Source: a virus
Virus record (IMG/VR): IMGVR_UViG_3300035156_000049
Location: 1-20,157 of that record
Direction: 5' to 3' (one strand)
DNA length: 20,157 bases
Under the pieces are notes generated by a model that ran no database searches, was not told the DNA's origin, and worked only from the letters and a program-made list of their open reading frames with translations. The position numbers were made by a program, and so were the translations under genes. This document shows, in pieces, positions 2,110 through 20,057 of this stretch. Numbering within the stretch: the stretch's first letter is position 1; each line of letters begins with the position of its first letter.

Positions 2110-2658
2110 TTAAAAAGCCCGCATCGGCGGGCTGGGTGGGGGCGTTTGTGGTGGCCGTCGCAATCGGATAATCGGGCCTTTAGGGTAGTCGACCATGTGC
2201 AGGTCGATCGGGCGCACGCGCCTCATGACGTTCGGGTCGAACAGGCGCAGGCGGCCGGCCAGCACGATCGCGAACGTCAGGTCCGAACACCACCAGCGGT
2301 CGTCGTCGCTCCAGTCCTCCGAATAAGTCAGGGGGATGCCGAGGGCGCCGGCGAAGTCGTATCTCTTCGGCTTGTAGGGCGGCGGCGGCGCGCACTGCGA
2401 TTCAGCGAACGCGCGCGCGGCATCGATGTCGGGCACTAGCACCGGCATGTCGCGGTAGACAACGATCCCCTCCATCAGCTCCTCGACCGTGCCGGCGCGG
2501 CAGCCGTGCGTCATCGACGCCTCGTAGGCCCGCTCCCCGATGATCGTGATCGAGTGGCTGAACTGGCGCGAGCCGGACGCGACCCCGATGGCCAGGCTGA
2601 GCGGGTTGTACGGCCAGCGGCTGGTGAGCCGGATCGTGATGATTCCAGGACGTGCCAT
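2110..2658 (-). CDS. Putative permuted papain-fold (NlpC/P60-like, YiiX/DUF830-type) peptidase
   Basis: A 182-residue protein. Its likely catalytic pattern runs in permuted order: His35 in FSHSITI, an acidic residue in YEAS (Glu46), and Cys124 in WWCSDL after KRYDFAGALGIPL. His before Cys is the arrangement of circularly permuted NlpC/P60 amidases such as YiiX, which cleave peptide or amide bonds in cell-wall or acyl substrates. There is no signal peptide; the C-terminus is Pro/Arg-rich. The ATG overlaps the previous stop (TAATG) with GAGGAG upstream. At the end of the tail module it may be a virion-associated wall hydrolase or a tail protein processor. The last codons are part of a terminator hairpin. 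Family assignment is by motif only. Confidence 0.6.
   Translation of the reverse strand: MARPGIITIRLTSRWPYNPLSLAIGVASGSRQFSHSITIIGERAYEASMTHGCRAGTVEELMEGIVVYRDMPVLVPDIDAARAFAESQCAPPPPYKPKRYDFAGALGIPLTYSEDWSDDDRWWCSDLTFAIVLAGRLRLFDPNVMRRVRPIDLHMVDYPKGPIIRLRRPPQTPPPSPPMRAF
2112..2133 (-). terminator. Intrinsic terminator overlapping the peptidase stop
   Basis: On the minus strand AGCCCGC-CGAT-GCGGGCT forms a seven-base-pair stem with a four-base loop and is followed by five T. The stem encodes the last peptidase codons (MRAF) and the TAA lies within the T-run. It separates the tail genes from the lysis cassette 24 bases before the holin-like start. Confidence 0.85.
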
Positions 2659-3494
2659 TACAGCTCCTCTACATACAGGGTGGTGGAATATGCCGCGGCG
2701 TATTTCAGGGCCATGGCCGAGTCTTGCGAACGCTTGCCGTAAATCGTCCAGTCGCGCTCCTCGGCCAGGTCACCGGACCCGGGACGCACGCTCAGCAGGA
2801 TCGGGTACGCCTGGCTGTTCCTCAGCAGGCCGGCGAAGATCTCGCGATCCGCCGGCAGCAGGTACGACAGGTCGACCGGCACCTTCCGATAGATGAAGCC
2901 CGGATCGGTGACCAGGCCGCCGGCCGCGGTGCGCTCGTGCTTGCTGGTGTCGACGATGGTCAGCGGCGCGTTCTTCGCGTTGTACTGCGGCGACCAGTAC
3001 GGGCCGACCACCATGCAAGCCGCCTCGATGTAGCCCTGCAGGTTGTTCGGGTCCGCGATGTCGACGACGACCTTGAAGGCGGTCACGGGACTGAACCAGT
3101 GCCGCGCGCAGGCGCCGCCGCCGTTGCTGTATGCGCTGGCCGCCTGCGCCGGCGTGAACCCGCGCGGCCGCAGCGCCGGCGCCGGGCAGGCCGGTACCGG
3201 CGTCACGCCGCTGTCATACAGCACCGTGGTGCCGTTGCTGGCGTAGGCGCGCACGCGGATCGTCGAGGTCGGCGACAGGTTGCAGTACGGCAGAGCGACG
3301 CACCCGATCAGCTCTCCGGCCGCCCATGTGGCGGTGTAGGTCTGGACCAGCGGCGTCGCGCCGGCGGAGCGGTGCACGCTATCCTTGCTCGCCAGCAGCA
3401 GGTTCGCGACCACCAGCGCGCCGGCGGTACTGGCGGCCGTGAACGTCGCCGCGCGCTCGAGCGCGTTGTCCGATACGATTCTCAGGTTTGGCAT
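2658..3494 (-). CDS. Tail tip/fibre structural protein, beta-rich, 278 aa
   Basis: No family is recognised with certainty. The N-terminal 100 residues look like a beta sandwich (ATFTAASTAGALVVANLL, then STIRVRAYASNGTTVLYDSG at 77-96), ending in an LYDSG strand also present in the 254-aa protein two genes upstream. The middle has several cysteines (65, 71, 103, 129, 160). The C-terminal part (FIYRKVPVDLSYLLPADREIFAGLL) continues to a beta-strand-like end. ATG at 3494 has GGAG upstream. Its position between tail tip genes and lysis suggests an exposed tip or receptor-binding component. That is inferred from context. Confidence 0.6.
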   Translation of the reverse strand: MPNLRIVSDNALERAATFTAASTAGALVVANLLLASKDSVHRSAGATPLVQTYTATWAAGELIGCVALPYCNLSPTSTIRVRAYASNGTTVLYDSGVTPVPACPAPALRPRGFTPAQAASAYSNGGGACARHWFSPVTAFKVVVDIADPNNLQGYIEAACMVVGPYWSPQYNAKNAPLTIVDTSKHERTAAGGLVTDPGFIYRKVPVDLSYLLPADREIFAGLLRNSQAYPILLSVRPGSGDLAEERDWTIYGKRSQDSAMALKYAAAYSTTLYVEEL

Positions 3495-3506
3495 ATGGCT
3501 CCAGGT

Positions 3507-4187
3507 TCAGGAAAGCAGGGACGCGAACGGCGCGGTGTCGTCATAGGCGCGCCAGGTGATCGCGCTCGCCTCTTCCGTCGTGGCCGCGCTCTCGATCAGC
3601 GCGCGCAGGTGGCGCCCCTTTGCATAGATCGCGTCGATGTGCGCGTCCAGCACCAGGCCCATGGCGACGACCTGGCCAGCACTCAGCGTGCGCACCGTGT
3701 TGTCGGTCAGGGTCCAGTCCTTGCTGTACGGCTGGCCGGCCGCCTGCGTGAGGTAGGCAGCGACCGCAGCTCCGGTCATGTCTTCCTTGTTGATCTGGTA
3801 GACGCCCCCTTCGAACGTGAAGTTGCCCGCCAGCGCTTGCGTGCGCGCAGCCTTGACGGCGACCCAGGCTCGTTCGCGCGCGGCCTGCACGGTGTCGCCG
3901 TTGTCCACCACCAGCTGCCCGCCGTAGAACGGCAGATCCGGGCGCTGGGTCAGGACGAGCTCCAGGTTGTCCGAGATCGAGTCGAGGCCAACGAATTCAT
4001 TAAGGTGGACGCTGTGCTGCCAGGAGCAGGCCTGCTGCTTGCCAGCGAGGTAGTCGGCCTCGGTGACGAAGGACACGACGCCCAGCAGGGCGAAACCTTC
4101 CTTGAAGCGCATGTCCGCCGCGATCAAGACGTGGAACGACACCGGGACGTTGCTCGCCCCGTAGTGGGTTTCTTTCAGGATTGGCAT
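3507..4187 (-). CDS. DUF4376-domain tail protein
   Basis: A 226-residue protein. Residues about 103-220 fit the DUF4376 pattern seen in phage tail-fibre and fibre-assembly proteins: a helix with RERAWVAVKAAR, an NFTFEGGVYQI strand, W-T-L-T-D-N-T-V, then helices ending LRALIESAATTEEASAITW. The N-terminal 90 residues are a separate, mostly beta domain (ASNVPVSFHVLIAADMRF). ATG at 4187 follows AAAGGG and lies 13 bases after the previous stop, one of the few small gaps in the operon. Likely role: tail tip or fibre part. The exact function of DUF4376 is not known. Confidence 0.65.
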   Translation of the reverse strand: MPILKETHYGASNVPVSFHVLIAADMRFKEGFALLGVVSFVTEADYLAGKQQACSWQHSVHLNEFVGLDSISDNLELVLTQRPDLPFYGGQLVVDNGDTVQAARERAWVAVKAARTQALAGNFTFEGGVYQINKEDMTGAAVAAYLTQAAGQPYSKDWTLTDNTVRTLSAGQVVAMGLVLDAHIDAIYAKGRHLRALIESAATTEEASAITWRAYDDTAPFASLLS

Positions 4188-4200
4188 GGTGCCCTTTCGT

Positions 4201-4965
4201 TTATACGTCGTGCTGCCAGCGGTCCAAAACCATCACCGCGTTGTTGAGCCCCGAGGAGCGCCAGAGGCCTGAATACGGGGCATTCGAAGTAGTGTCCGGG
4301 TCAAACTGGTAAAAATACCGGCAGAAGATGGACTGCAGGCCGCCATTGCCAACGACTCGATAAAACAGCCGCCCCTTCGCCTCGCCGGTTCCGCTCTTGT
4401 CGCCCCAGTGTTCGTGCAAGCGGCGCGAGTCGATCGAGAGCGCCGGGCTTTGGGGCATGTAGCCTTTCGGCGCGCCCCACCCGTTCAGGGTCATAACAGC
4501 TTCGCGGCCGGACCATGCCATGTCCGGATTCAGGCCGGTGAACACCTGGTTGATGTTCAGGTGCCTGTTGCCGCTGTCGTAGAGTAGCTGGCCGCCCGGG
4601 CCCCAGACTCGTTTCCCATAGCGCTCGCTCCCGTAGGACACGTAGTCGAGCGCGAAGTAGTAGATCGTCGGGGGTTCAACATACGATCCTGGCGAGTAGA
4701 TACAGCCGGCGCCGGCAGGGTCGCCAAAATAGTACGTTTCGCTGGCATTAAACGGCACGCTGAAAAACACAACATACGGCCGGTTGAGCGCAGCGCTCGG
4801 GATCGGGTAGTTCCACTGCCGGTAGACCCAGCCCCCTTGTGCCGGCGAGTCGAAGGACGGGTAATCGCCGGCCCACAGCACGGCGATCAGCTGCGGCACC
4901 ATTCTTTTGTTGTCGATTTGGCGCCCGCCGCTGGCGGAGACGATTCTTGATCCGTAATCACTCAT
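4201..4965 (-). CDS. Hypothetical tail tip protein, Tyr/Trp-rich, 254 aa
   Basis: Unrecognised beyond its context. It is unusually rich in Tyr, Trp and Gly, with alternating short strands (RPYVVFFSVPFN, ETYYFGDP, TIYYFALDYVSYG) and a KRVWGPGGQLLYDSG strand at about 118-132. The latter matches the LYDSG strand of the 278-aa protein further along. Aromatic-rich beta folds are common in receptor-binding and carbohydrate-contacting tail parts. There is no signal peptide or membrane helix. It starts by an ATGA overlap with the 99-aa gene upstream, which points to joint expression. It could be a small tail fibre or a tip decoration protein. Confidence 0.6.
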   Translation of the reverse strand: MSDYGSRIVSASGGRQIDNKRMVPQLIAVLWAGDYPSFDSPAQGGWVYRQWNYPIPSAALNRPYVVFFSVPFNASETYYFGDPAGAGCIYSPGSYVEPPTIYYFALDYVSYGSERYGKRVWGPGGQLLYDSGNRHLNINQVFTGLNPDMAWSGREAVMTLNGWGAPKGYMPQSPALSIDSRRLHEHWGDKSGTGEAKGRLFYRVVGNGGLQSIFCRYFYQFDPDTTSNAPYSGLWRSSGLNNAVMVLDRWQHDV

Positions 4966-5261
4966 AGTGCGAAGACCGCAATCTTGGTTGTCCAGTCGGT
5001 GGTTGGAGCAGAAGCCGGAGGGGTGAATGGATCAGCTTCGACATACGGGTATCCGTTGCCATCACGGGCGAACCGGATCGTGTGGTAGCCGCCGTAGATG
5101 ACCTGGCCGAAGATATTCATCGTGTCCAGGTCCGTGAACGTCCGGCGCCCGCCGCCCTGACTGAAGGTCACCACCTCGACGAAGACGCCTCCGTTTCCGT
5201 CAGGGCTCAGGACCTCGCGCCCGCTGCGAAAGGTGATGTGGCCGTAGCGTGCGTTCGACAT
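4962..5261 (-). CDS. Small tail-tip-associated protein, 99 aa
   Basis: Unrecognised. It begins immediately after the stop of the 865-aa protein (TAG then ATG) and overlaps the next gene by ATGA. The composition is beta-like: GHITFRSGREVLSPDG, VFVEVVTFSQGGGRRTFTD, then IYGGYHTIRFARDGNGYPYVEADPF and a Pro/Thr-rich linker before a final strand, WTTKIAVFAL. The very tight coupling on both sides suggests a structural partner of its neighbours, perhaps a tail tip adaptor. No catalytic motif is seen. Confidence 0.55.
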   Translation of the reverse strand: MSNARYGHITFRSGREVLSPDGNGGVFVEVVTFSQGGGRRTFTDLDTMNIFGQVIYGGYHTIRFARDGNGYPYVEADPFTPPASAPTTDWTTKIAVFAL

Positions 5262-7859
5262 CTACCAGAGCCTCCCGTCGAGGATCCGCATGGTGCCGCC
5301 CTCGTCGTAAATGGCGATCTGATCCTTGATGATGGTGGTGCCGGCACCCTGACCGTTCACGCGGCTGGTCAGTGTCCCGACGTCCACAGCAAGCGCAGAC
5401 AACGTGCCGATGCTTGCCTTGTCGATGTGCGCCAGCCTGATTGCGGCCGACTGGATAAAAGTCGAGGAGTTACCGGGGGTGATGATGTTTTCCCCCCCGG
5501 GGGTAGCCTTAGTCCCTAACTCCACTTTTATGTTGTAAATCTCAGCTGTTCCGCTCCCGCCCGTTCCAAACACCCGAAGGCGTGCCTCGCGTGACTCCGA
5601 ATTCGTCAGAATATCGGTGAAAGTGTAGTGTTTAGGCGTACCTGTCAGGCTAGGGCCGATACCAGGGGTATCTGCATTTGGACCATACAAATCGACATAA
5701 ATATCGCGTGCCCCGTTATAGCAATGCGCATCAAAACTGACAGTGCAGTATGTATTCGGTGGAATACCCAATGCGGCCGACTCATAGCCGATATAGACGC
5801 TGCCATTTTGGGCAGGGATGACGATCAGTTCGCCATTAAGGGCGGGATGACCTGAATAGTTAAAACCGACATTCGCTCCGTTATACCTGTTTCCAACCGG
5901 CCAGTTAGAGATGCGGGGTACTAGATTCGGGTTGCTGGCTGCTTGCTGTGACAGCGTAGATCCGGCGGAAAGAATCACCGTTCCATCTGGCGCACGAATG
6001 TCCAACGTCCCGGCCTTGATAGCCGCTCCGTTGATGGACCCCGTTACGAAGAGATTGCCGTCGTAAATCGCGCCCATGGCAACCCATGCGGACCCGTCCC
6101 ACTTCTTCGTCATCGCAAAGGTGGTGCCGTTCGAGATCGTGACGACGTCGCTGGTAACGTTGCCGCCCGGCGTGGCAGCATCAGCCGCGCCGTCCGACCA
6201 GGCGCTGCCAGCGGCGTAGTAGGTTCCAGCACCACGGTCGCCGGTCACCGAGGTGCCAGCCTTGCTCTTCGTGACGTTGAAGCGCTTCGTGATCGATGCG
6301 TAGCCGGTCCGGCTGGCGGTGACGTCGACATATGCGGAATCGACGCCGGCGGCCATGGTAACGACGGAGACGGTGCCGCCGCTGCCGGTGTACGCGAGTG
6401 AGCTGCTGGAGCTTGCGGGGGCATAGGCGAACGTCCAGTTCGCGCTGTCGTCGGCTGTGCCCTTGTACACCTTCATGGTGCACACCGCGCCCGAGTAGCT
6501 CGACACCACGCCGTTCGAACCCGCTGGCAGCGTCACGCTTTCGTTGGTCAGCATCCCGATGATGGCGTCTGCGCCATCGATGCCGTCGGTGCCGCCGGTC
6601 ACCTGCACCAAGGTCATCTCGTCGAAGTACGTGGCGCCGCCGATGGTGGCCATTGCGCGGAATACCCGGGACCCCGTCAACGAGCCCGATGCCACAGTGT
6701 AGGTTGCCGCGGTCGCGCCGCTGATCGCAGTCCAGGCCGTGCCGCTCCAGTATTGCCACTGGTACGCGGTGGCCACGCCGCCGTATGTCGTTGTGCCCAG
6801 CACGATGCTGGCCGGGGCGAAAGTCGCAGCAGCCGTCGCGCGGCTGAACACCTGGCCGCCGGAGGTCGAGACGTCGACATACACAGGGGAGCTGCCGTCG
6901 GCGCCGGCGCGCGCCTTCGAGATAGAGTAGACCCGGTCGACGGTCACGCCCTTGTAGACAGCGCGGATCGTCGCGGTGCCGGTGTCGGCGCTCATCGAGG
7001 CGATGGTATAGACGCCGGTGGTGGCGATCGACACGTCGACACCGGTTTCAGACGGCACGCTGTAGACCACCGCAGCATTGCCCGTCACCTCGGTGGCGCC
7101 CTCGAACACCTTGAAAGTGCCGCCGGCGGCGGCGAAGCTGGCCACGGTGCCGGCGTTGTTCGTCGAGATCGACACCGACTCGTTCGTCAGGAAGCCGGTA
7201 ACCGGGCTGACGCCGTCGGCGCCGTCGCGCAGCTTGCTGATGGTGATCCGGTCGGTCTGGCCGTCCAGGGCGATCTGCACGGTGACGCTTTCGCTGGTCA
7301 TGTTCGCGAAGGTCAGGATCTTCTGCGATGCATTCGCGCCGGCGGTGAGCGTGGCGGTACCGATCGGGATCGTGAACGACGGCGTGCCGACGATGTTCTG
7401 TCCGGACGCGGTCAACGTGATGCTAGCCGGCGAGTTGGCGCCCACCTTGTTGACTTTGAACACCTGCTCCGTCGCCGACAGGGTCAGGACTTTCGCGCTC
7501 GATCCCGAGTTGCCGTCCTGCGTCGTCGCGATGATGCACGACTGGGAGAACGTCACCCCGCCGCTCTGCATGGTCGCGGTGATGATCGCGGTCGGGCCGG
7601 TCATGCTGGCGTAGGTAACCGTCGCGCTGCGGTCGGTCACGTTGCTCAAGGTCGCGCCCTGGGCGGAAAAGGTGAGCGGGCCGTCCAGGTCGTACAGGGT
7701 GGCCGTCACCGTGATCGTGTCGATGTCGGCGACACCGGACGAGTTCACGTGGAACGCCGGGGCATCCGTCGTCAGGATGATCGAGGCGTTCTTCGGGTTG
7801 ACGATGCGCACCGCGGCGCCCTGCAGCAGCGCGTCGCAGTCGTTCAGAACTCCGCTCAT
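5262..7859 (-). CDS. Multi-Ig-domain central tail tip/fibre protein, 865 aa
   Basis: A modular surface protein starting at MSGVLND, whose ATG overlaps the upstream stop (ATGA). A longer frame extends to 8435, but that part is antisense-like and was not used. Several Ig-like beta domains are separated by short collagen-like links (RDGADGVSP, AGADGSSP, GTDGIDGADA). Domains around 222-330 and 434-545 are a duplication (GFLTNESVSI and GMLTNESVTL). Residues about 641-789 form a jelly-roll-like carbohydrate-binding insert, opening with NPNLVP and closing with NIKVELGTKATPG, whose DNA is clearly lower in GC. The C-terminus (IAIYDEGGTMRILDGRLW) resembles the ends of central tail fibres. The likely role is host recognition at the tail tip. 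Confidence 0.75.
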   Translation of the reverse strand: MSGVLNDCDALLQGAAVRIVNPKNASIILTTDAPAFHVNSSGVADIDTITVTATLYDLDGPLTFSAQGATLSNVTDRSATVTYASMTGPTAIITATMQSGGVTFSQSCIIATTQDGNSGSSAKVLTLSATEQVFKVNKVGANSPASITLTASGQNIVGTPSFTIPIGTATLTAGANASQKILTFANMTSESVTVQIALDGQTDRITISKLRDGADGVSPVTGFLTNESVSISTNNAGTVASFAAAGGTFKVFEGATEVTGNAAVVYSVPSETGVDVSIATTGVYTIASMSADTGTATIRAVYKGVTVDRVYSISKARAGADGSSPVYVDVSTSGGQVFSRATAAATFAPASIVLGTTTYGGVATAYQWQYWSGTAWTAISGATAATYTVASGSLTGSRVFRAMATIGGATYFDEMTLVQVTGGTDGIDGADAIIGMLTNESVTLPAGSNGVVSSYSGAVCTMKVYKGTADDSANWTFAYAPASSSSSLAYTGSGGTVSVVTMAAGVDSAYVDVTASRTGYASITKRFNVTKSKAGTSVTGDRGAGTYYAAGSAWSDGAADAATPGGNVTSDVVTISNGTTFAMTKKWDGSAWVAMGAIYDGNLFVTGSINGAAIKAGTLDIRAPDGTVILSAGSTLSQQAASNPNLVPRISNWPVGNRYNGANVGFNYSGHPALNGELIVIPAQNGSVYIGYESAALGIPPNTYCTVSFDAHCYNGARDIYVDLYGPNADTPGIGPSLTGTPKHYTFTDILTNSESREARLRVFGTGGSGTAEIYNIKVELGTKATPGGENIITPGNSSTFIQSAAIRLAHIDKASIGTLSALAVDVGTLTSRVNGQGAGTTIIKDQIAIYDEGGTMRILDGRLW

Positions 7860-9334
7860 ACGAGAAACCCTACCTTGACGCGCCCGGTAGACCAGTCGGG
7901 CGCAAGTGAAATTACGATGCCGGCCGCGCCAGCCGCCATGCCGAAGCGCGGGCTGTAGACGGTCACGGCCTGACCGAGTTCGAGCTGCAGCAGCTCCGGC
8001 AGCCCGTCGAACTCGTACGTGGTGCGCGGCACCTTCCACAGGTCGAGCCGGCGCTGCGCCTCCGCTTCCGCTTCCGCTCGCGTGAGCAGCAGCGTGTCCT
8101 GCTGGACCGGCTCGGCGTTGAGCTTGAACTTCGCGATGGTGGCCGCATCCGATTTCGTGGTGGTCCGCCACTCCTGCGTGAACAGGTCCTTGTGCCGATC
8201 CGGTATCCCCGCCAGCGTGCCGGCGTCCTGGACCGTCCAGTTTTTGCAAAAGCCCAGCTTGACGGCGCCCACCGCGGCGGTGCGACCGGTCGGCTGAAGC
8301 GTGTCGTCGACCATGTGCTCGGGTCGGATCACGAACGGCGTGCCGGCGCCGGGCAGCGCGACCTTGACGATCCGAAGCTTGCCCAGGCGCGACATCACGA
8401 GCTGAGCGCCGATGCTGCCCGTCAGCGACTGACACGCCGGCAGCACGTTCAGCCGGTCGGTCGCGTACAGACCGACGCCCTGCTGGTTTGCCGAATCGAA
8501 TGCCGTCAGGCTGACCAGGTCGAGGTCATCGTCGGCGAAGCGGTCGGATGCCTTGCCGTAGCCGGTGACGATGCGCTTGACGATCGAGGCGACCGTCTCG
8601 CGATAGCCGCCGGCGCTGTCGCCGCGCATGGACAGGGTGACGGCGCCCGCCGGCGCATCGTCCAGCGTGATGACGCCGGTGGCCAGATTGGTCGTGTAGC
8701 CGATCTTAGCGCCGTTGTCGCGCGCCTCGATCGAACCGTCGATTTGACCGACATGCCCCTGATACTCGAGCGTCCCGTTGCTGATCCGTACCGGGGTCGC
8801 GTTGAACACCTGGCCGAGCGCCACTGGGCGCAGCACGTCCTGGTTCTCACCCGTGCCGCCGATCTTCGCTTCGCTGAGCGCCGTGTCCAGGCGCTGCAGC
8901 TTGTCGCGCAGCTTCAGCCCCAGCTTGTTGCGGCCGCGCGGTGCGATGTCTGCCACGATCCCGTTGAAGATCATGCGGAAGTCCGAGCGCGGCCAGCGCA
9001 GGTCACCGATGTACGCCTTGATCGCGCGGTTCGTCCAGACGTAGGAAGCATCCGCCCAGACGTCGCGCGCGCCGCCGGTGTTGTCGATCTCCAGCACGCC
9101 GGCCGACAGCGCCCCGTCGCCTTCCAGCGACAGCTGCTCGGTGAACAGCGTGCCGACGGTGGCGATCGGCAGGTACGAGGTATTCGCCGGCGTATCGGCC
9201 GCACCGGTGGTAAATGGTTTCGTCGCCATGTAGACGACGGACTCCACGCCACCGATCTGGACCGCTGCCTCGATGAGGACGACACGGTACGCCGCCTGGC
9301 TTTGCAGCCAGGTCAAATATTGAGCATCTGTCAT
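7856..9334 (-). CDS. Tail tip hub/baseplate-like protein, 492 aa
   Basis: It immediately follows the tape measure gene (ATGA overlap), where siphophages encode distal tail and hub proteins. The N-terminus (YLTWLQSQAAYRVVLIEA) leads into strands ending AYIGDLRWPRSDFRMIFNG, with a following LKLRDKLQRLD helix. The C-terminal part has a long charged helix (LLLTRAEAEAEAQRRLDLW), then GLPELLQLELGQAVTVYSPRFG. That last motif resembles the closing beta barrel of phage hub and minor tail proteins. There is no signal peptide or catalytic motif. Hub assignment rests on position and this C-terminal pattern. A combined Dit/hub function is possible because no separate Dit gene is visible. Confidence 0.65.
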   Translation of the reverse strand: MTDAQYLTWLQSQAAYRVVLIEAAVQIGGVESVVYMATKPFTTGAADTPANTSYLPIATVGTLFTEQLSLEGDGALSAGVLEIDNTGGARDVWADASYVWTNRAIKAYIGDLRWPRSDFRMIFNGIVADIAPRGRNKLGLKLRDKLQRLDTALSEAKIGGTGENQDVLRPVALGQVFNATPVRISNGTLEYQGHVGQIDGSIEARDNGAKIGYTTNLATGVITLDDAPAGAVTLSMRGDSAGGYRETVASIVKRIVTGYGKASDRFADDDLDLVSLTAFDSANQQGVGLYATDRLNVLPACQSLTGSIGAQLVMSRLGKLRIVKVALPGAGTPFVIRPEHMVDDTLQPTGRTAAVGAVKLGFCKNWTVQDAGTLAGIPDRHKDLFTQEWRTTTKSDAATIAKFKLNAEPVQQDTLLLTRAEAEAEAQRRLDLWKVPRTTYEFDGLPELLQLELGQAVTVYSPRFGMAAGAAGIVISLAPDWSTGRVKVGFLV

Positions 9335-13674: not shown

Positions 13675-13887
13675 TTACTTCGAAGACGGGGCTCGGAATA
13701 GCAGCCACACCTTCTCTACACACCTGGCAGCGATGTACAGCATCCCGACGATTGCAAGGCTGATCGTTGCAACCATCTCGCGCTGTTGCATCCCGACTTC
13801 GCTCGCCCGCGGCGGCGTCAGATAGGCCACCAGCGAGATTGCTATTAGCGCGACAAGTACAAACAGTATCCCCAGAACGTATTTCAT
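13675..13887 (-). CDS. Small two-helix membrane protein, candidate moron
   Basis: A 70-residue protein with a strong GGAGGGG ribosome-binding site before the ATG at 13887; a TTG frame extension to 13911 was not used. Helix 1 is at about 3-24 (YVLGILFVLVALIAISLVAY). A polar link, PPRASEVGMQQRE, precedes helix 2 at about 39-55 (TISLAIVGMLYIAA), then RCVEKVWLLFRAPSSK. It lies between the tail chaperone and tape measure genes and is followed by its own strong terminator, unlike the overlapping tail genes. In HK97 this locus holds gp15, an inner-membrane superinfection-exclusion protein. Function here is inferred from position and topology only. Confidence 0.7.
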   Translation of the reverse strand: MKYVLGILFVLVALIAISLVAYLTPPRASEVGMQQREMVATISLAIVGMLYIAARCVEKVWLLFRAPSSK

Positions 13888-13949
13888 CACCCCTCCATTG
13901 TGAGGAGGCAATCTTACACCAGGCCGATGAGCGACCCGGCGCTTTCTGC

Positions 13950-14195
13950 TCAGTCCTTACTGTGCATCGTGTTGAGCGCAGCAACCTCCATCACCTGCAG
14001 GTCCTGGTCGAGCTGCGCGTACTCCTCGGCGCTCAGCCCCATGCGATCCATGCGGTGGTATGCGACGACATAGTCCAGCCCGGTTCGGCCGCTCATCCCG
14101 ATGCGCCATTGCGTCGTCAGGCTATGGAACAGGTTGAAGGCCCGGACATTCTCGGGCCAGATTTCGCAAGACGTTGCAACGTCCTCCCGCGTCAT
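13950..14195 (-). CDS. Tail assembly chaperone T extension (DUF1799-like), expressed by frameshift
   Basis: The open frame from MTRED encodes 81 residues with the DUF1799 signature: a W in EIWPENVRAFNLF, TQWRIGMSGRTGLDYVVAYH, then a helical end. In lambda-type phages this T part is made only as a fusion after a -1 shift near the end of G. Here the frame is open without a stop from 14261, and a slippery heptamer lies exactly there. The shifted product would gain 103 residues (starting LEDVAAALYAP) and total about 208. A GGAGG 8 bases before the internal ATG means separate translation cannot be excluded. The protein links tail tube and tape measure during assembly. Confidence 0.85.
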   Translation of the reverse strand: MTREDVATSCEIWPENVRAFNLFHSLTTQWRIGMSGRTGLDYVVAYHRMDRMGLSAEEYAQLDQDLQVMEVAALNTMHSKD

Positions 14196-14257: not shown

Positions 14258-14575
14258 CTAGTTTTTTGCGCGAACCTTGGTCATCTCGCTGATGTACTTT
14301 TCGACGATTGCATGACCCGAGCCCATGTAGTTCTTGGTCATCTTCGCCAGGTTGTCAGCGTCGAATGCGTCGTCCAGGTCCCAGCCGCTGACCACGTCCA
14401 TCAGCAGGTCGATGTCATCGCGGTCTTCCATCCCTTCCATGAAGGTCTTGAAGTCCTCGCGGGGGCGGTGCTTGAACGTGAATTCGATGCCCGCCGCGGT
14501 GCCGCCCGGGACTGGAATCAGCACAGTCGCCTTGAAGGTCGGGGATGGGTTCAGGGTAAATTTTGGTTTTGCCAT
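14258..14575 (-). CDS. Tail assembly chaperone (lambda G-like)
   Basis: A 105-residue protein in the conserved place between tail tube and tape measure. The N-terminal strand region (KPKFTLNPSPTFKATVLIPV) and FTFKHRPREDFKTFMEG lead into an acidic helical part (DRDDIDLLMDVVSGWDLDDAF) and a final helix ending TKVRAKN. This is the usual pattern of siphophage G-type chaperones. They coat the tape measure during tail tube polymerisation and are absent from mature virions. The last codons GCA AAA AAC TAG include a slippery heptamer directly before the stop. The ATG at 14575 follows AAAGAAAAA, a weak site, and comes after a terminator hairpin. Confidence 0.85.
   Translation of the reverse strand: MAKPKFTLNPSPTFKATVLIPVPGGTAAGIEFTFKHRPREDFKTFMEGMEDRDDIDLLMDVVSGWDLDDAFDADNLAKMTKNYMGSGHAIVEKYISEMTKVRAKN
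14261..14267 (-). promoter_or_regulatory. Programmed -1 frameshift slippery site A_AAA_AAC
   Basis: On the minus strand the zero-frame codons GCA AAA AAC TAG contain the canonical X_XXY_YYZ heptamer. After a one-base slip the next codon is CTA, and the reading continues without a stop through MTRED to 13952. Immediately downstream lies a self-complementary TGCAGCTGCA (around 14240-14249), a possible stimulatory stem. This places the G-to-GT shift at the very end of G. Confidence 0.85.
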
Positions 14576-16273: not shown

Positions 16274-16572
16274 TTGATCGACTCGCACACCAGGTCCATG
16301 AAGCGCCGGTCAGCGTTGCGCAGCGGCGGCGACTTGACCTGGTAGGTGGTCCCGTTGTGCACCACGCGCATGGTGGTATCGATCTCTGGCCGGTACCACA
16401 TCCTGATCGAGGCGCGCAGGGTCGAAGTGTCAGCGCCCGAGCGGATCGTTTCGGATCCGCTCAGGTGGCGCACGTTCGCCCAGAAGACGCCCAGATCAAG
16501 CCACGCTGCCTTCTTGAGCGTGTCGCCGCCCGGGTCCTTCTGCTGTACGGTGATCCGGTCGTTGAGCATCAT
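16270..16572 (-). CDS. Head closure/head-tail adaptor (SPP1 gp16-like)
   Basis: A 100-residue protein with the adaptor pattern: MMLNDRITVQQKD, an AAWLDLGVFWANVRHLSGSE strand-turn, IRMWYRPEIDTTMRVVHNG, then a YQVKSPPLRNADRRFMDLVCE ending. These proteins close the connector under the portal until a tail docks. The frame continues upstream without a stop, but coupling by ATGA with the connector gene fixes the start at 16572 (or the next codon, also ATG). The gene order agrees with the family. Confidence 0.8.
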   Translation of the reverse strand: MMLNDRITVQQKDPGGDTLKKAAWLDLGVFWANVRHLSGSETIRSGADTSTLRASIRMWYRPEIDTTMRVVHNGTTYQVKSPPLRNADRRFMDLVCESIK

Positions 16573-17117
16573 GCGAACACCCTGTAACGGTCCAGCAACC
16601 GATGAATGTTCGGCGACGGCGCGCCTGCCTGCGCGAACTGCTCGGCGACCTTGGCCAGGACGTAGCTCTTGAGCGAGTCCGGAACCGCCGCATCGCCGTC
16701 GCCGTAGCCGCACTTGTATTGCACCTCGACGGCATTGATGCGCGCCGCGGTGGCCGGCCAAGCTTTACCCGGCGCCGGCACCACCAGGCCCGGCTCGCTC
16801 TCGGCATCGACGATGTAGTCCTGCGGGTCCAGCGTCCGCTGCACGCCGGCCGTGTCATAGAACTTCACGTGCACGACAGACTGCAGGGGCGCGTTCGGCA
16901 GCTTGATCGCCGGCGGGAATGCGTGGAGCGTGGCGCGCCAGGTCTGCGTGATGAACGCGCGCCTGGTGGCGTGCTCGGCATTCTCGGTGAACCCACGCAC
17001 CGCCTGCTCCACGTCAGCGTCGAGGCCGGCGCCATCCGCGCGCGCCGCCGTGATCGCCTGGGCCAGCGATACCGCAAGCGCCGCCGGCGGCGTAATCAGC
17101 CGCGCAGTCGCGATCAT
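16569..17117 (-). CDS. Head-tail connector (phiE125 gp8/HK97 gp6-like)
   Basis: A 182-residue protein of the phiE125 gp8/HK97 gp6 class, which forms the adaptor ring under the portal. Typical parts are the mostly helical N-terminus with VEQAVRGFTENAEHATRRAF, a W in QTWRATLHAFP, LPNAPLQSVVHVKFYDTAG, DPQDYIVDAE, then VEVQYKCGYGDGDAAVPDSL and a C-terminal helix ending LLDRYRVFA. The V-x-Y-x-x-G-Y-G and final helix are characteristic. It starts by ATGA overlap with the tiny ORF upstream. Confidence 0.85.
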   Translation of the reverse strand: MIATARLITPPAALAVSLAQAITAARADGAGLDADVEQAVRGFTENAEHATRRAFITQTWRATLHAFPPAIKLPNAPLQSVVHVKFYDTAGVQRTLDPQDYIVDAESEPGLVVPAPGKAWPATAARINAVEVQYKCGYGDGDAAVPDSLKSYVLAKVAEQFAQAGAPSPNIHRLLDRYRVFA

Positions 17118-17269
17118 CGAGCACCGCCTTGCGAGCGCAGCGCCGCGGTATGCCCGTCACCGTCTGGCGCGCGGACGTATTCCGGCGCCGGCGCGGGTGC
17201 CGCTTTCCCCTCCGCCTCGAGCGCGGCCGGATCGCATGGCTTGGTAGGAAGCTTGGTTGGGTCGAACAT
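17114..17269 (-). CDS. Tiny Pro/Ala-rich ORF, 51 aa
   Basis: Unrecognised. It starts MFDPTKLPTKP, continues through a Pro/Ala stretch (KAAPAPAPEYVRAP) and ends ALRSQGGAR. The ATG overlaps the preceding stop as TGATG, and its own stop overlaps the connector ATG as ATGA. That double coupling is the main evidence that it is translated. The longer frame to 17551 is only an antisense-like extension. It may simply carry ribosomes to the connector start, or be a small scaffold-like or accessory peptide. Confidence 0.55.
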   Translation of the reverse strand: MFDPTKLPTKPCDPAALEAEGKAAPAPAPEYVRAPDGDGHTAALRSQGGAR

Positions 17270-17586
17270 CAGTTGCTCACTCGGTTGAAGTAGATGGTTT
17301 TGTCGAACTGCTCGCCGTTCGCGCACGTGACGCGGAAGGTGCAGGAGCTCTCGGTGCCGACGGCGCCCATGCTGTCGAGCTTTACGGAAAGCAGGCCGCC
17401 CAGGTTTCCCTGCGGCGCGCCCTTCTCCAAGATGGTGACGCCCTGCGGCAGAGCGTCGAACGACACGCAGGTTGTCGCACCGTCGACAAGCGCGGCCGTT
17501 ACATTGGCCACGTACCAGAGCTTGTCGTCCGGATCCTTGTCGATCGTCCACTTGTCGCCCACCTGGTAGGGAACTGGGTTTGCCAT
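17269..17586 (-). CDS. Small beta-rich virion protein, 105 aa, possible fibre adaptor
   Basis: It begins MANPVPYQVGDKWTIDKDPD; the ATG overlaps the previous stop as TAATG. It shows strands LWYVANVTAALVDG and TTCVSFDALPQGVTIL, a Gly-rich GAPQGNLGGLL turn, then an Ig-like CTFRVTCANGEQFDKTIYF end. The pattern of an N-terminal DPDD motif followed by a final immunoglobulin-type strand pair resembles the phage fibre-tail adaptor class (Pam3 gp18-like), but I cannot confirm it. Between the lectin/repeat protein and the connector genes, it may attach that protein to the particle. Confidence 0.5.
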   Translation of the reverse strand: MANPVPYQVGDKWTIDKDPDDKLWYVANVTAALVDGATTCVSFDALPQGVTILEKGAPQGNLGGLLSVKLDSMGAVGTESSCTFRVTCANGEQFDKTIYFNRVSN

Positions 17587-18851
17587 TAGAACCTCACTGT
17601 TCGGGTACCGCCGGCGAACATCACCGTGCGGATACCACCTTGGAACACGACCGAGCGCGCACGGCCGGCGAAAATAACGGCCCGCGCTGCCGGGATCTTG
17701 GTGGCGTCGATAATCGCCTCCGGTGGCGCGCCGCTGCCGGTGGCTGTCACCGCCGAGACCTGCGCCGTTGCGCTTACGCCTTGCGGCTGAGCGCGCGCGC
17801 CGCCGGAGCCGATCGCGATGCCAACGCCGGCGGATGCTGCTATGCCGGTCGGGGATGCGTTTCCACTGCCGCCGGCCGATGCACTGGCTTGCCCCACCTG
17901 GCCGGCAGCCGTGACGCCGGCGGGAGTTGCCCGCGCGCCGCCGCCAGCCGTGGCCGTGCCAACGCTAGTCGACGCGCTAACGCCCGGGGGCGATGCGACC
18001 GCGCTGCTGCCAGCCGATGCCGACGCCGTACCAACCGAGGCGGCAGCCGTGACCCCAGCAGGATTGGCCCGCGCGCCGGCTGACGCCACCACGGAACCCA
18101 CAGAGGACACTGCGCTGACGCCAAATGGCTCCGCGATACCATTGGTGACAGGAGCGACCGCCGCAACGTAATCGTCTTCAAGCTCGGCCGCGTCCAGAAA
18201 TAGCTGGTAGGGATTTGCCGAGATCGAAGCCATCTCGATCGGCTGCAGGGCGCGGGACCAGACGAACGCGACAGCGACGTGCCCGCGCAAGTTATAGCTG
18301 GTCTGACCGGTGATGCCGCCGACGTTGAATATGCTCGCCGACGACGTCATATCGGCAAGCGCGCCAGTATTGACCTGCTCACCATTTACATAAATGGCAC
18401 CCGCAGTCCCAGCATAGGTCGCTCCAACTGCCATTGGTACGCCATAGGCATACACGGACGCCGGAGTATCCAGTGAGGTAAAGTTCCGGGTGTATGTGCC
18501 GAACTTTCCGCCATTAAAGCGGATGCCGCGAACACCAGCTACGAAGGCCCCATCAGGGCCGATTTCCAGAATAACCTGCTCGGCCGTAGCGTTAAACGAC
18601 GTGGCGAGCGCGAACATCGAACCGGTGTTCAGGTTCGGGCCGGTGAACGTCATTTTTGCTTGGCCGACGCCCGCATCGAGGACGGTGCCGTTCGTTGCGT
18701 ATCCGCGATTCTTGCCGACGTTGACGAAGCGCTTGCCCGTGATCGGATCGAACGCTGACGTACCGATGAACACGCAAACCAGACCCTTGGCGATCGGGTT
18801 GGCTTTATTTATCCGTATCAGCCCGCGGGGCTGGCGACGCAGGCCGATCAT
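17586..18851 (-). CDS. LamG-like lectin domain protein with GV(S/T)A repeats
   Basis: A 421-residue putative virion surface protein. Residues about 55-220 fit a LamG/concanavalin-like fold ending in VAFVWSRALQPIEMASI then NPYQLF, the usual close of these domains in phages. Residues 244-373 are six tandem repeats of alternating 22 and 24 residues beginning GV(S/T)A, with a conserved VG in most units and Pro at the end. The last 33 residues are four short repeats of the form x-R-x-V-x-F-x-G-G. This is a plausible head- or tail-exposed fibre: a binding head, a stiff repeat stalk and a beta end. It is coupled by TAATG on both sides. Carbohydrate binding is inferred. Confidence 0.7.
   Translation of the reverse strand: MIGLRRQPRGLIRINKANPIAKGLVCVFIGTSAFDPITGKRFVNVGKNRGYATNGTVLDAGVGQAKMTFTGPNLNTGSMFALATSFNATAEQVILEIGPDGAFVAGVRGIRFNGGKFGTYTRNFTSLDTPASVYAYGVPMAVGATYAGTAGAIYVNGEQVNTGALADMTSSASIFNVGGITGQTSYNLRGHVAVAFVWSRALQPIEMASISANPYQLFLDAAELEDDYVAAVAPVTNGIAEPFGVSAVSSVGSVVASAGARANPAGVTAAASVGTASASAGSSAVASPPGVSASTSVGTATAGGGARATPAGVTAAGQVGQASASAGGSGNASPTGIAASAGVGIAIGSGGARAQPQGVSATAQVSAVTATGSGAPPEAIIDATKIPAARAVIFAGRARSVVFQGGIRTVMFAGGTRTVRF
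17733..18122 (-). repeat. Tandem GV(S/T)A protein repeats (22/24 residues)
   Basis: Six units encoded within the lectin-type gene start at residues 244, 266, 290, 312, 336 and 358 (the last is partial). Units alternate 22 and 24 residues, giving a 46-residue higher-order period. Shared positions are G-V-x-A at the start, V-G near position 8-9, an Ala/Ser/Gly-rich middle and P near the end. DNA copies are diverged, so recent expansion is unlikely. Confidence 0.75.
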
Positions 18852-19222
18852 TACAGGCCCGTCAGCAGCATCACGCCGGCCTGCACGGTGATCGCGTTCG
18901 TAGTGTTACCGAAGGCGACAGCACGCAGGAACATCGCAGGGCGCACGAGCGAAATTGTTCCAGGCGTCACGGTGCCACTCAGGTTGTCCTTGCTGGCGAT
19001 CGGCTGATAGTCGTACCAGTCCGTCCCGTTTTGCGAAATCTGGAACATCAGAATGCCCGGACTGCCGAGCGCGCCGCTATTCGTGATCCGGTAGGTGAGT
19101 TCGCCCCCATACGATGTGCTGACGTCAATCGCTGGGCTGGCGACAGGGGCAGACTCAAGCGTGCCGGCGGGAATGGTCGTGGCGGTCGCCCACAGTGCCG
19201 AAAATGATTTGGTGGCGGCCAT
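18851..19222 (-). CDS. Beta-rich virion-associated protein, 123 aa
   Basis: It starts MAATKSFSALW with ACGGAG upstream; the ATG overlaps the previous stop (TAATG). A longer frame reaches 19489 but is not used. The sequence looks like a single beta sandwich: GGELTYRITNSGAL, GILMFQISQNGTDWYDY, RPAMFLRAVAFGNTTNA and VQAGVMLLTGL. The paired pattern of a strand with x-W-Y-D-Y and a closing hydrophobic strand is common in small phage particle proteins. No enzyme motif is seen. Joint coupling with its neighbours suggests that it belongs to the same particle assembly. Function not known. Confidence 0.6.
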   Translation of the reverse strand: MAATKSFSALWATATTIPAGTLESAPVASPAIDVSTSYGGELTYRITNSGALGSPGILMFQISQNGTDWYDYQPIASKDNLSGTVTPGTISLVRPAMFLRAVAFGNTTNAITVQAGVMLLTGL

Positions 19223-19638
19223 TATTTCTCCGTTGAATCGTCGTTGAACATGGCTGCATTCACCTGCTCGCGGGTAACCACGACAGGTTGCAAGGCCATA
19301 GCCTTGAGGGTTTCGCCCTGTGCGGCGGTGAGGACGCTCGTTCGCACCAGATGGTCGACCATTCCTTGCGTGAACGGGTCGCCAATGTCGAGCCCGGCCT
19401 CTTGGCCGAGGAACTTGAGCGCCCACGCTACCGCGCGGTTCGCCGAGGCGTTTTCCAGCGCGTCGAGGACCGCAATACCATCGGGGCAAGCAGCCATGAC
19501 AGCGCGCGCCGTGATGAAGCGCTTCTGTGGTGCCATCAGCCCCTCGGCGTTGAGTGCGGCAGCGAGCTTGTCCAGCTCGCGCTCAGCACGCAGCCCGTCC
19601 AGGTCGCTGCGCGCAAGGATTCGGGTGCGAATGTCCAT
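19222..19638 (-). CDS. Hypothetical helical protein, 138 aa
   Basis: Unrecognised. Mostly helical: MDIRTRILARSDLDGLRAER, KLAAALNAEG, then KRFITARAVMAACPDG and a long Ala/Leu-rich middle (AWALKFLGQEAG), ending VTREQVNAAMFNDDSTEK. It is neutral to acidic with no membrane segment. ATG at 19638 is two bases after the upstream stop, and its own stop shares a base with the next ATG. Among beta-rich virion genes a helical protein could be a chaperone for the neighbouring fibre-like proteins; that is only context. Confidence 0.55.
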   Translation of the reverse strand: MDIRTRILARSDLDGLRAERELDKLAAALNAEGLMAPQKRFITARAVMAACPDGIAVLDALENASANRAVAWALKFLGQEAGLDIGDPFTQGMVDHLVRTSVLTAAQGETLKAMALQPVVVTREQVNAAMFNDDSTEK

Positions 19639-19640
19639 GA

Positions 19641-20057
19641 TCAGGCGATCTTGATGACGGCGGTCGCAGCGGCCGGCGTCGGCAGCACGACATTGAACGT
19701 GCCGTTGGTCGAGACGATGTCAGTCCCGAAGTCCAGCACCGCCTTGACCTTGTTGGCGTTGGTCGCGTCGTAGATCACGGCGCCGCGCGCGGTGATGGTC
19801 GAGTTCGCCCAGGACGGATCCGCGAAATCGAGGATCGCGGTGGTACCGTCGAGCGACGCGGCGTAGCCCGTCAGCATGGCGCCGCCGGCGGTGTAGCCGG
19901 TGCCGGTCACTTCGCCCGTGGCCGAGTAGGTCGCGGTGGCCGCGCTCAGCGTCGCCGAACTCGGGTACAGCGCCATCTTGTAGGTATTGCCGGACGGGCA
20001 CAGCAACTGCAGCGCGTCCAACTTCGCCTGGTTCGGGAATGCGGCGGTAATTGCCAT
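19641..20057 (-). CDS. Conserved phage virion structural protein, 138 aa
   Basis: It has the pattern of a widespread phage particle protein: MAITAAFPNQAKLDALQL, GNTYKMALYPSSATLSAATA, YSATGEVTGTGYTAGG, ILDFADPSWANSTITARGA, and a closing VLDFGTDIVSTNGTFNV. Proteins with this series of strands are frequent next to head genes of tailed phages and are annotated as structural or decoration proteins without a known precise role. ATG at 20057 follows GAGGA. A hairpin lies 25 bases before the start. Confidence 0.7.
   Translation of the reverse strand: MAITAAFPNQAKLDALQLLCPSGNTYKMALYPSSATLSAATATYSATGEVTGTGYTAGGAMLTGYAASLDGTTAILDFADPSWANSTITARGAVIYDATNANKVKAVLDFGTDIVSTNGTFNVVLPTPAAATAVIKIA

Follow-up and report, generated by a model that had tools for sequence, protein, structure and literature searches.

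The virus record IMGVR_UViG_3300035156_000049 (IMG/VR), analyzed here over positions 1 to 20,157 (20,157 bp; hereafter the window), carries nearly all of its genes on the minus strand. Directly upstream of the head-tail connector genes lies a cassette of five overlapping open reading frames (ORFs), g1 to g5 (positions 17269 to 20057, minus strand), followed by a sixth member, g6, that had been missed in a preliminary description of this DNA. Our analysis indicated that these six genes probably encode a neck-collar fibre device, a reading to which we give a probability of about 0.74. The neck location is suggested by the predicted fold of the g5 protein together with the position of the genes. 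Neck-collar fibre devices are already known, and the new part is a rule concerning a candidate docking peptide encoded directly before the gene of the head-tail adaptor (g7).

The strongest evidence for a neck device is that neck-encircling proteins head the list of structural matches to the predicted g5 protein. Its AlphaFold2 model, made from 13 homologues, reached a mean predicted local distance difference test score (pLDDT) of 90. The sole PDB match of this model with an E value of ≤0.001 in Foldseek was 8jou_B (E = 4.6e-4), and VIA-align likewise placed 8jou_B, from the fibre I and fibre-tail adaptor of phage GP4, at the top (Z = 10.3; root-mean-square deviation [rmsd], 2.0; 85/89 residues). 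The next matches were the collars of phages Milano (Z = 8.5) and 7-7-1 (Z = 8.2). Unrelated immunoglobulin (Ig) folds scored 7.2 or below, so that the g5 model shows the fold of the GP4 fibre-tail adaptor with a Z of 10.3 versus 7.2. Because Milano and 7-7-1 are close relatives, these leading matches represent two independent cases, not three. At the sequence level, g5 scored 26.7 bits (26.4 in a second run) against the Pfam family PF23148 (Gp77, "GP4 fiber-tail adaptor"; cut-off, 27), and an orthologue that is 70% identical, in the related locus L064, passed with 32 bits. Since the fold matches the GP4 adaptor and then the collars, a neck collar bearing fibres is the most likely form of the device, rather than a capsid decoration. 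The earlier suggestion that the 105-residue protein might be an adaptor is supported by this fold, which g5 shares with the GP4 fibre-tail adaptor and neck-collar proteins.

Another line of evidence is a short C-terminal motif. Viral contigs and bacterial genomes were scanned for related loci, which yielded L002 to L057 and L061 to L067; genes in GC-rich loci were called by codon usage. The gene immediately preceding that of the adaptor encodes a protein with the C-terminal motif [YF]x[RQ]AP (hereafter YxRAP), commonly followed by xGxG and RP..TQ. YxRAP was found in 26 loci, namely, the window and 25 relatives (L003 has L for R), while among 1067 other proteins of these loci the full motif occurred 0 times and the short motif once. 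In loci bearing g5, YxRAP sits on a separate g6 protein of 49 to 61 residues (13/13, including L040 and L067, which were found by reading the gap), whereas in loci lacking g5 it forms the C terminus of a large protein (12/12); L045, with an incomplete sequence, was left out of this comparison. In L006, L007, L012, and others, a phrog_644 protein (the family of g1) is present but g5 is not, and a large repeat protein, encoded next to the adaptor, has YxRAP at its own C terminus. The motif is missing in the distant group L048 to L057. In newly found prophages, YxRAP was present in 5/6 cases where a g7-type adaptor follows g5 and in 0/6 where a protease-like gene follows (one-sided Fisher, 0.008; the loci are related, so this value is indicative only). 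The latter arrangement, with the g5 domain directly before a protease-like gene and no YxRAP, was seen in other prophages (L073, L074, L077, L081, L082, and L083), suggesting that the collar domain can move from one type of phage to another. A role for YxRAP as a translation-coupling signal in the DNA was considered and rejected: its Arg and Pro codons are variable in the third position, which places the constraint on the protein. Given its strict placement before the adaptor gene, we infer from these sequences a docking role for the peptide, by which the fibre would be attached to an adaptor-type neck. We know of no described docking peptide of this kind. The g6 N terminus, FDPTKLP, resembles the start of a C-terminal repeat in the g4 protein, IDATKIP, and possibly represents a duplicated strand or hook.

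The large protein encoded by g4 had been described as a LamG-like protein with a repeat stalk. The stalk was found at the protein level, as six PxG[VI]xA units at 22/24-residue spacing (about residues 242 to 378) with a self-match at lag 22 above all 2000 shuffles; no tandem array was detected at the DNA level. The LamG part of the claim reached only sub-threshold similarity, with 23.0 bits (E = 1e-4) for the N-terminal part against Laminin_G_3 (PF13385; cut-off, 27.6) and 24.8 bits, also below the cut-off, for the homologue in L063. The C-terminal part carries beta-repeats (IDATKIP...RTVxFxGG), and its last 53 residues are 64 to 81% identical in L031, L061, and L063, in which the N-terminal part is replaced; L064 retains only the C-terminal part, as a 71-residue protein. 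Moreover, large proteins of 579 to 1094 residues in L034, L035, L036, L065, and L066 have a g5-like domain as a C-terminal fusion, and this domain occurs as tandem pairs in L035, L065, and L066. The large-protein slot holds sub-threshold LamG-like sequences (the window, L034, and L063), a SASA carbohydrate acetylesterase (above the cut-off in L035 and L067, weak in L064), or a weak BNR match (L065). These sequences combine a constant base with interchangeable heads, as expected of an adhesin.

The g1 protein belongs to phrog_644 (E = 4e-18), a family of unknown function that also occurs in Caulobacter, Gordonia, Pelagibacter, and other phages, and the divergent g1-slot family A5 joins phrog_644 in profile comparison (92%). 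Its AlphaFold2 model (pLDDT, 95.5) matched 9mt4_K (Bas63 connector; Z = 9.2) and 9c39_K (Sf14 neck; Z = 8.9; 104 residues aligned) in VIA-align, followed by the Bxb1 tail tip (Z = 8.9) and baseplate-arm proteins of T4/phi812, so that the Felix-O1-type whisker matches are tied with tail-tip and baseplate proteins. Chain 9c39_K is a homologue of Felix-O1 ORF55 and, by gene order, is presumably the Sf14 whisker gp31. GP4 fibre I (8jou_a) gave a Z of 6.4 (rmsd, 3.0; 102 aligned). Above background, the list comprised only phage structural proteins (fibre, whisker, connector/neck, tail tip, and baseplate arm), and the next row had a Z of 3.6. In L031 (E = 7e-28), L061, and L063 only, the g1 slot is occupied by a Gp80 protein (PF23140, scoring above the cut-off), and in these three loci a Gp77-like g5 and Gp80 stand together in one cassette. 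No PF23140 profile match was obtained for g1 of the window; lacking such a sequence-level link, g1 was not assigned to Gp80. Two further arrangements were observed at this slot. In L041, a phrog_3758 "virion structural protein" (7560 to 7979) stands where other cassettes have g1/g2. In the unrelated Microcystis phage MJing1 (L058; 6001 to 7187), a g1-type protein is again paired with a repeat protein: the gene of a phrog_644 member immediately precedes that of a "tail repeat like protein," and a DUF5309 protein is encoded a few genes ahead of them.

The g2 gene lies between g1 and g3 in L005, L008, L031, L037, L038, L042, L061, and L063. Profile searches with g2 returned no family match, a search of the L005 g2 against plasmids returned none either, and the proposal that this helical 138-residue protein might assist folding found no support. 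For g3, whose position is conserved, similarity to DUF6385 was weak and below the cut-off (E = 0.001), and no match was found in the PDB. We consider g2 a probable fibre accessory and g3 a probable fibre component.

Gene structure and context are consistent with a single unit. All five ORFs of the preliminary description were recovered on the minus strand at the coordinates it had given, and the tight coupling that it reported was confirmed: the junctions from g1 to g5 are +2, -1, -1, and -1 nucleotides (nt), that of g5/g6 is -1, and that of g6/g7 is -4. The ratio of nonsynonymous to synonymous substitution rates (dN/dS) was 0.07 to 0.34 for the cassette genes in homologous pairs from other contigs (g2, 0.11; g3, 0.07; g6, 0.10 to 0.12). 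Given these overlaps of 1 to 4 nt, with one 2-nt gap, and these ratios, the genes are real and tightly packed. The start of g3 is an ATG; the ORF list extends this gene too far, to a TTG that would give 212 residues. The major capsid gene is outside the window, whose edge lies 100 bp upstream of g1; placement of the cassette between capsid-side and connector genes, as claimed earlier, thus holds in the relatives that carry the capsid gene. Their order is terminase, portal, protease, major capsid protein (PF05065), two small genes, cassette, and adaptor. The capsid-to-adaptor gap was 1.3 to 4.8 kb in 28/28 distinct contigs having both genes (29 rows, as L062 is the same contig as L031), indicating that the separation, which the preliminary description had set against the close spacing usual in HK97/lambda-type phages, is the norm in this group of phages. 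Among cellular genomes, the nearest relatives were prophages of Massilia and another member of the Oxalobacteraceae, and the g5 domain was found in 14/393 sampled genomes from the family of a Massilia aurea genome.

Taken together, the six proteins would act in the virion as follows. The g5 protein would form an Ig-like ring around the head-tail adaptor, presumably with 15 copies as in the GP4-like cases, and g4 would be the adhesin, its LamG-like head carried on the repeat stalk and its C-terminal beta-repeat joining g5; in some relatives, the two are one polypeptide. The g6 peptide would dock this assembly on the adaptor-type neck, with g7 as its proposed partner, and g1, together with g2 and g3, may form a second fibre of whisker or chain type or the connection to a second fibre. 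Such a device would bind a host-surface polysaccharide reversibly, before tail-tip engagement, and its modular design would make the sugar-recognising part exchangeable. A wider reading, which we hold to be possible but short of probable, is a combinatorial neck-adhesin platform, in which YxRAP at the neck-proximal end, borne either by the adhesin itself or by a separate, dedicated protein of 50 residues, might let siphophages swap entire carbohydrate-recognition heads like cartridges, the collar ring being optional.

Several observations weigh against a neck-collar fibre device. The g5 protein of the window falls 0.3 bits short of the Gp77 cut-off, and searching PDB chains with the g5 profile by sequence returned none. 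Because Ig-like folds are common, the structural match of g5 shows a fold and not a position. About half of the related phages lack a detectable g5, so that their anchoring is unexplained, while YxRAP is missing from L032 and, despite the presence of g5 and g7, from L080. The idea that g1 is a Gp80 by sequence was rejected, with an hhalign probability of 3% against the L031-type Gp80. A caution about function comes from the Anabaena myophage A-1(L), whose neck fibre has a distal carbohydrate-binding module that did not bind the host of this phage (PMC10966104).

Among the alternatives, it is conceivable, though in our view doubtful, that the module is mixed, with g4, g5, and g6 forming a neck collar fibre and g1 to g3 a separate fibre bound to the capsid or its vertices; this estimate overlaps with that for the device as a whole. 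Such a division would fit the loss of the g1 to g3 slots in L064, L065, and L067, where g5 and g6 remain, the retention of g1 without g5 in L004 to L008 and L012, and the position of g1 nearest to the capsid gene. However, the slot is occupied by Gp80 in L031, L061, and L063, and Gp80 and the adaptor of GP4 share one deposited assembly (8jou). The preliminary description had favoured a capsid-exposed decoration or fibre system. An accessory virion fibre is supported by our results, but location of all five proteins on the capsid lattice or vertices appears unlikely, and that part of the description was probably wrong, since g5, the best-identified component, matches neck collar and adaptor proteins specifically. 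Furthermore, no capsid decoration protein is among the leading g1 matches, and the coupling of YxRAP to the adaptor gene also points to the neck. These points outweigh, in our view, the location of the cassette directly after the capsid gene in relatives, the name "head protein" of phrog_240 (which includes the L031 g1-slot protein), the head and packaging class of the phrog_3758 protein in L041, and the numbering of Milano capsid accessory proteins near the collar gene.

That the cassette encodes tail-tip or tail fibres out of place, in the head region, seems very unlikely. The Bxb1 tail-tip and T4/phi812 baseplate-arm proteins do occur among the g1 matches, and for the fold of g5 BFVD lists a "minor tail protein" from a mycobacteriophage, but a separate tail-tip and fibre set is already present after the tape measure gene (2658 to 9334), and all 28 contigs have the 1.3- to 4.8-kb insert before the adaptor. 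Least probable of all is a chance gathering of unrelated accessory genes (morons) without a common assembly; g2 and g3 indeed have no known relatives, but the overlapping starts, purifying selection, g4-g5 fusion, exchange of the motif between g4 and g6, and conserved order all argue for a joint function.

Table 1. Genes of the proposed neck-collar fibre cassette and the adjoining adaptor gene, with positions in the window
Gene	Positions	Strand	Product
g1	19641-20057	-	138 aa; phrog_644; predicted whisker/fibre-type beta fold
g2	19222-19638	-	138 aa; helical by inspection; probable fibre accessory
g3	18851-19222	-	123 aa; probable fibre component
g4	17586-18851	-	421 aa; putative adhesin, LamG-like N-terminal part, repeat stalk, and C-terminal repeats
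g5	17269-17586	-	105 aa; predicted Ig-like collar/fibre-tail adaptor protein
g6	17114-17269	-	51 aa; Pro/Ala-rich, YxRAP peptide; proposed docking peptide
g7	16569-17117	-	182 aa; head-tail adaptor; landmark and proposed partner, outside the fibre

Downstream of the cassette, the order is head-tail adaptor, head completion protein, neck protein, tail terminator, and major tail protein, followed by two tail assembly chaperone frames, the tape measure, tail-tip and fibre genes, and lysis genes. The connector set was confirmed as adaptor (g7; phrog_442, E = 2.5e-21; TIGR02215, E = 2.5e-20, exceeding the cut-off), head completion protein (PF05521), neck protein (phrog_5), and tail terminator (PF11367). 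The chaperone pair (14258 to 14575 and 13950 to 14195, minus strand) contains an in-frame slippery AAAAAAC at 14267 to 14261, where -1 reading unites both frames, like the programmed frameshifting of lambda G/GT, and a small ORF with one hydrophobic stretch (13675 to 13911, minus strand) lies between this pair and the tape measure gene. The fibre-like gene at 5262 to 7859 (minus strand) encodes about 865 residues from an ATG at 7859; its 1057-residue GTG-start version overlaps the upstream gene and is over-extended. An Rfam search gave no match, nucleotide searches against named phages gave short, scattered matches only, tblastn of g2, g3, g4, and g5 against named phages gave none, and PDB sequence searches with g1, g3, g4, g5, and g6 returned nothing credible.

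If correct, the neck-collar fibre device would extend host-surface recognition in these siphophages beyond the tail tip, which bears on the prediction of host range from tail genes alone. The cassette also shows how a sugar-recognising part may be swapped in a poorly studied group of long-tailed phages. Moreover, a g5-like domain plus YxRAP before an adaptor gene provides a sequence signature by which such devices may be located in metagenomes and Burkholderiales prophages. To our knowledge, neck fibres have been solved in few phages, mainly short-tailed and contractile ones, and most of the genes for them bear the annotation "hypothetical."

The view that the cassette is an undescribed assembly was only partly right, as relatives with described roles exist, namely, GP4 fibre I with its adaptor and the Milano and 7-7-1 collars. 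In the Ralstonia podophage GP4 (gp80 fibre I and gp77 adaptor; PDB 8JOU; PF23140/PF23148), the adaptor has a g5-like fold; by contrast, the cassette belongs to a phage with a long noncontractile tail, has a phrog_644 protein instead of Gp80, and possesses the extra g6 peptide and, in some relatives, the g4-g5 fusion. In the Pseudomonas podophage DEV, 15 N-terminal barrels of gp53 form a collar around the head-tail adaptor with five trimeric fibres and an esterase-like domain, and the authors liken the 15:12 mismatch to GP4 (PMC10925440). This protein is needed to infect O-antigen hosts: a gp53 deletion mutant failed to infect the normal host and infected truncated-lipopolysaccharide strains, and O-antigen binding before a second receptor was proposed (PMC10925440). 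By description, gp53 resembles the L035 protein in uniting a collar and a carbohydrate-active domain on one polypeptide, although the collar domain is N-terminal in gp53 and is C-terminal or a separate gene in the cassette phages.

The collars of the Agrobacterium phages Milano and 7-7-1, with a g5-like fold (Z, 8.2 to 8.5), are proteins that wrap the neck. Milano gp13 has 15 copies per ring (PDB 8FWC) and is numbered directly before neck 1 (gp14), and 7-7-1 gp118 is likewise 15-fold (PDB 9RKT). Unlike the cassette phages, both are myophages, with four stacked rings of a two-domain protein and no reported collar fibres. A-1(L) has five bead-chain neck fibres on a pentadecamer, encoded by gp80 to gp82 (PMC10966104), and resembles the cassette by description in having a multigene neck fibre with a distal carbohydrate-binding module; its fibre genes are distant from the head genes, however, and the fibre attaches straight to the neck pentadecamer. 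The Felix-O1-like whiskers (Sf14 gp30/gp31; PDB 9C39; PMC11821841) share a g1-like fold (Z = 8.9), and phrog_240 links this whisker family with the Gp80-type protein of L031, yet Sf14 is a contractile phage whose whiskers have six-fold symmetry and genes between portal and capsid (PMC11821841). The collar spike of XM1 carries an Ig-like neck-binding domain. Finally, in the Alishewanella siphophage LSH1, gp34 to gp36 form an "extra structural module" with a polysaccharide-lyase-like payload, a GP4-fibre-like dimer, and an Ig-like protein (PMC13243795). By description, this three-gene module of a siphophage follows the same working model as the cassette, from which it differs in lying past the lysis genes rather than before the connector.

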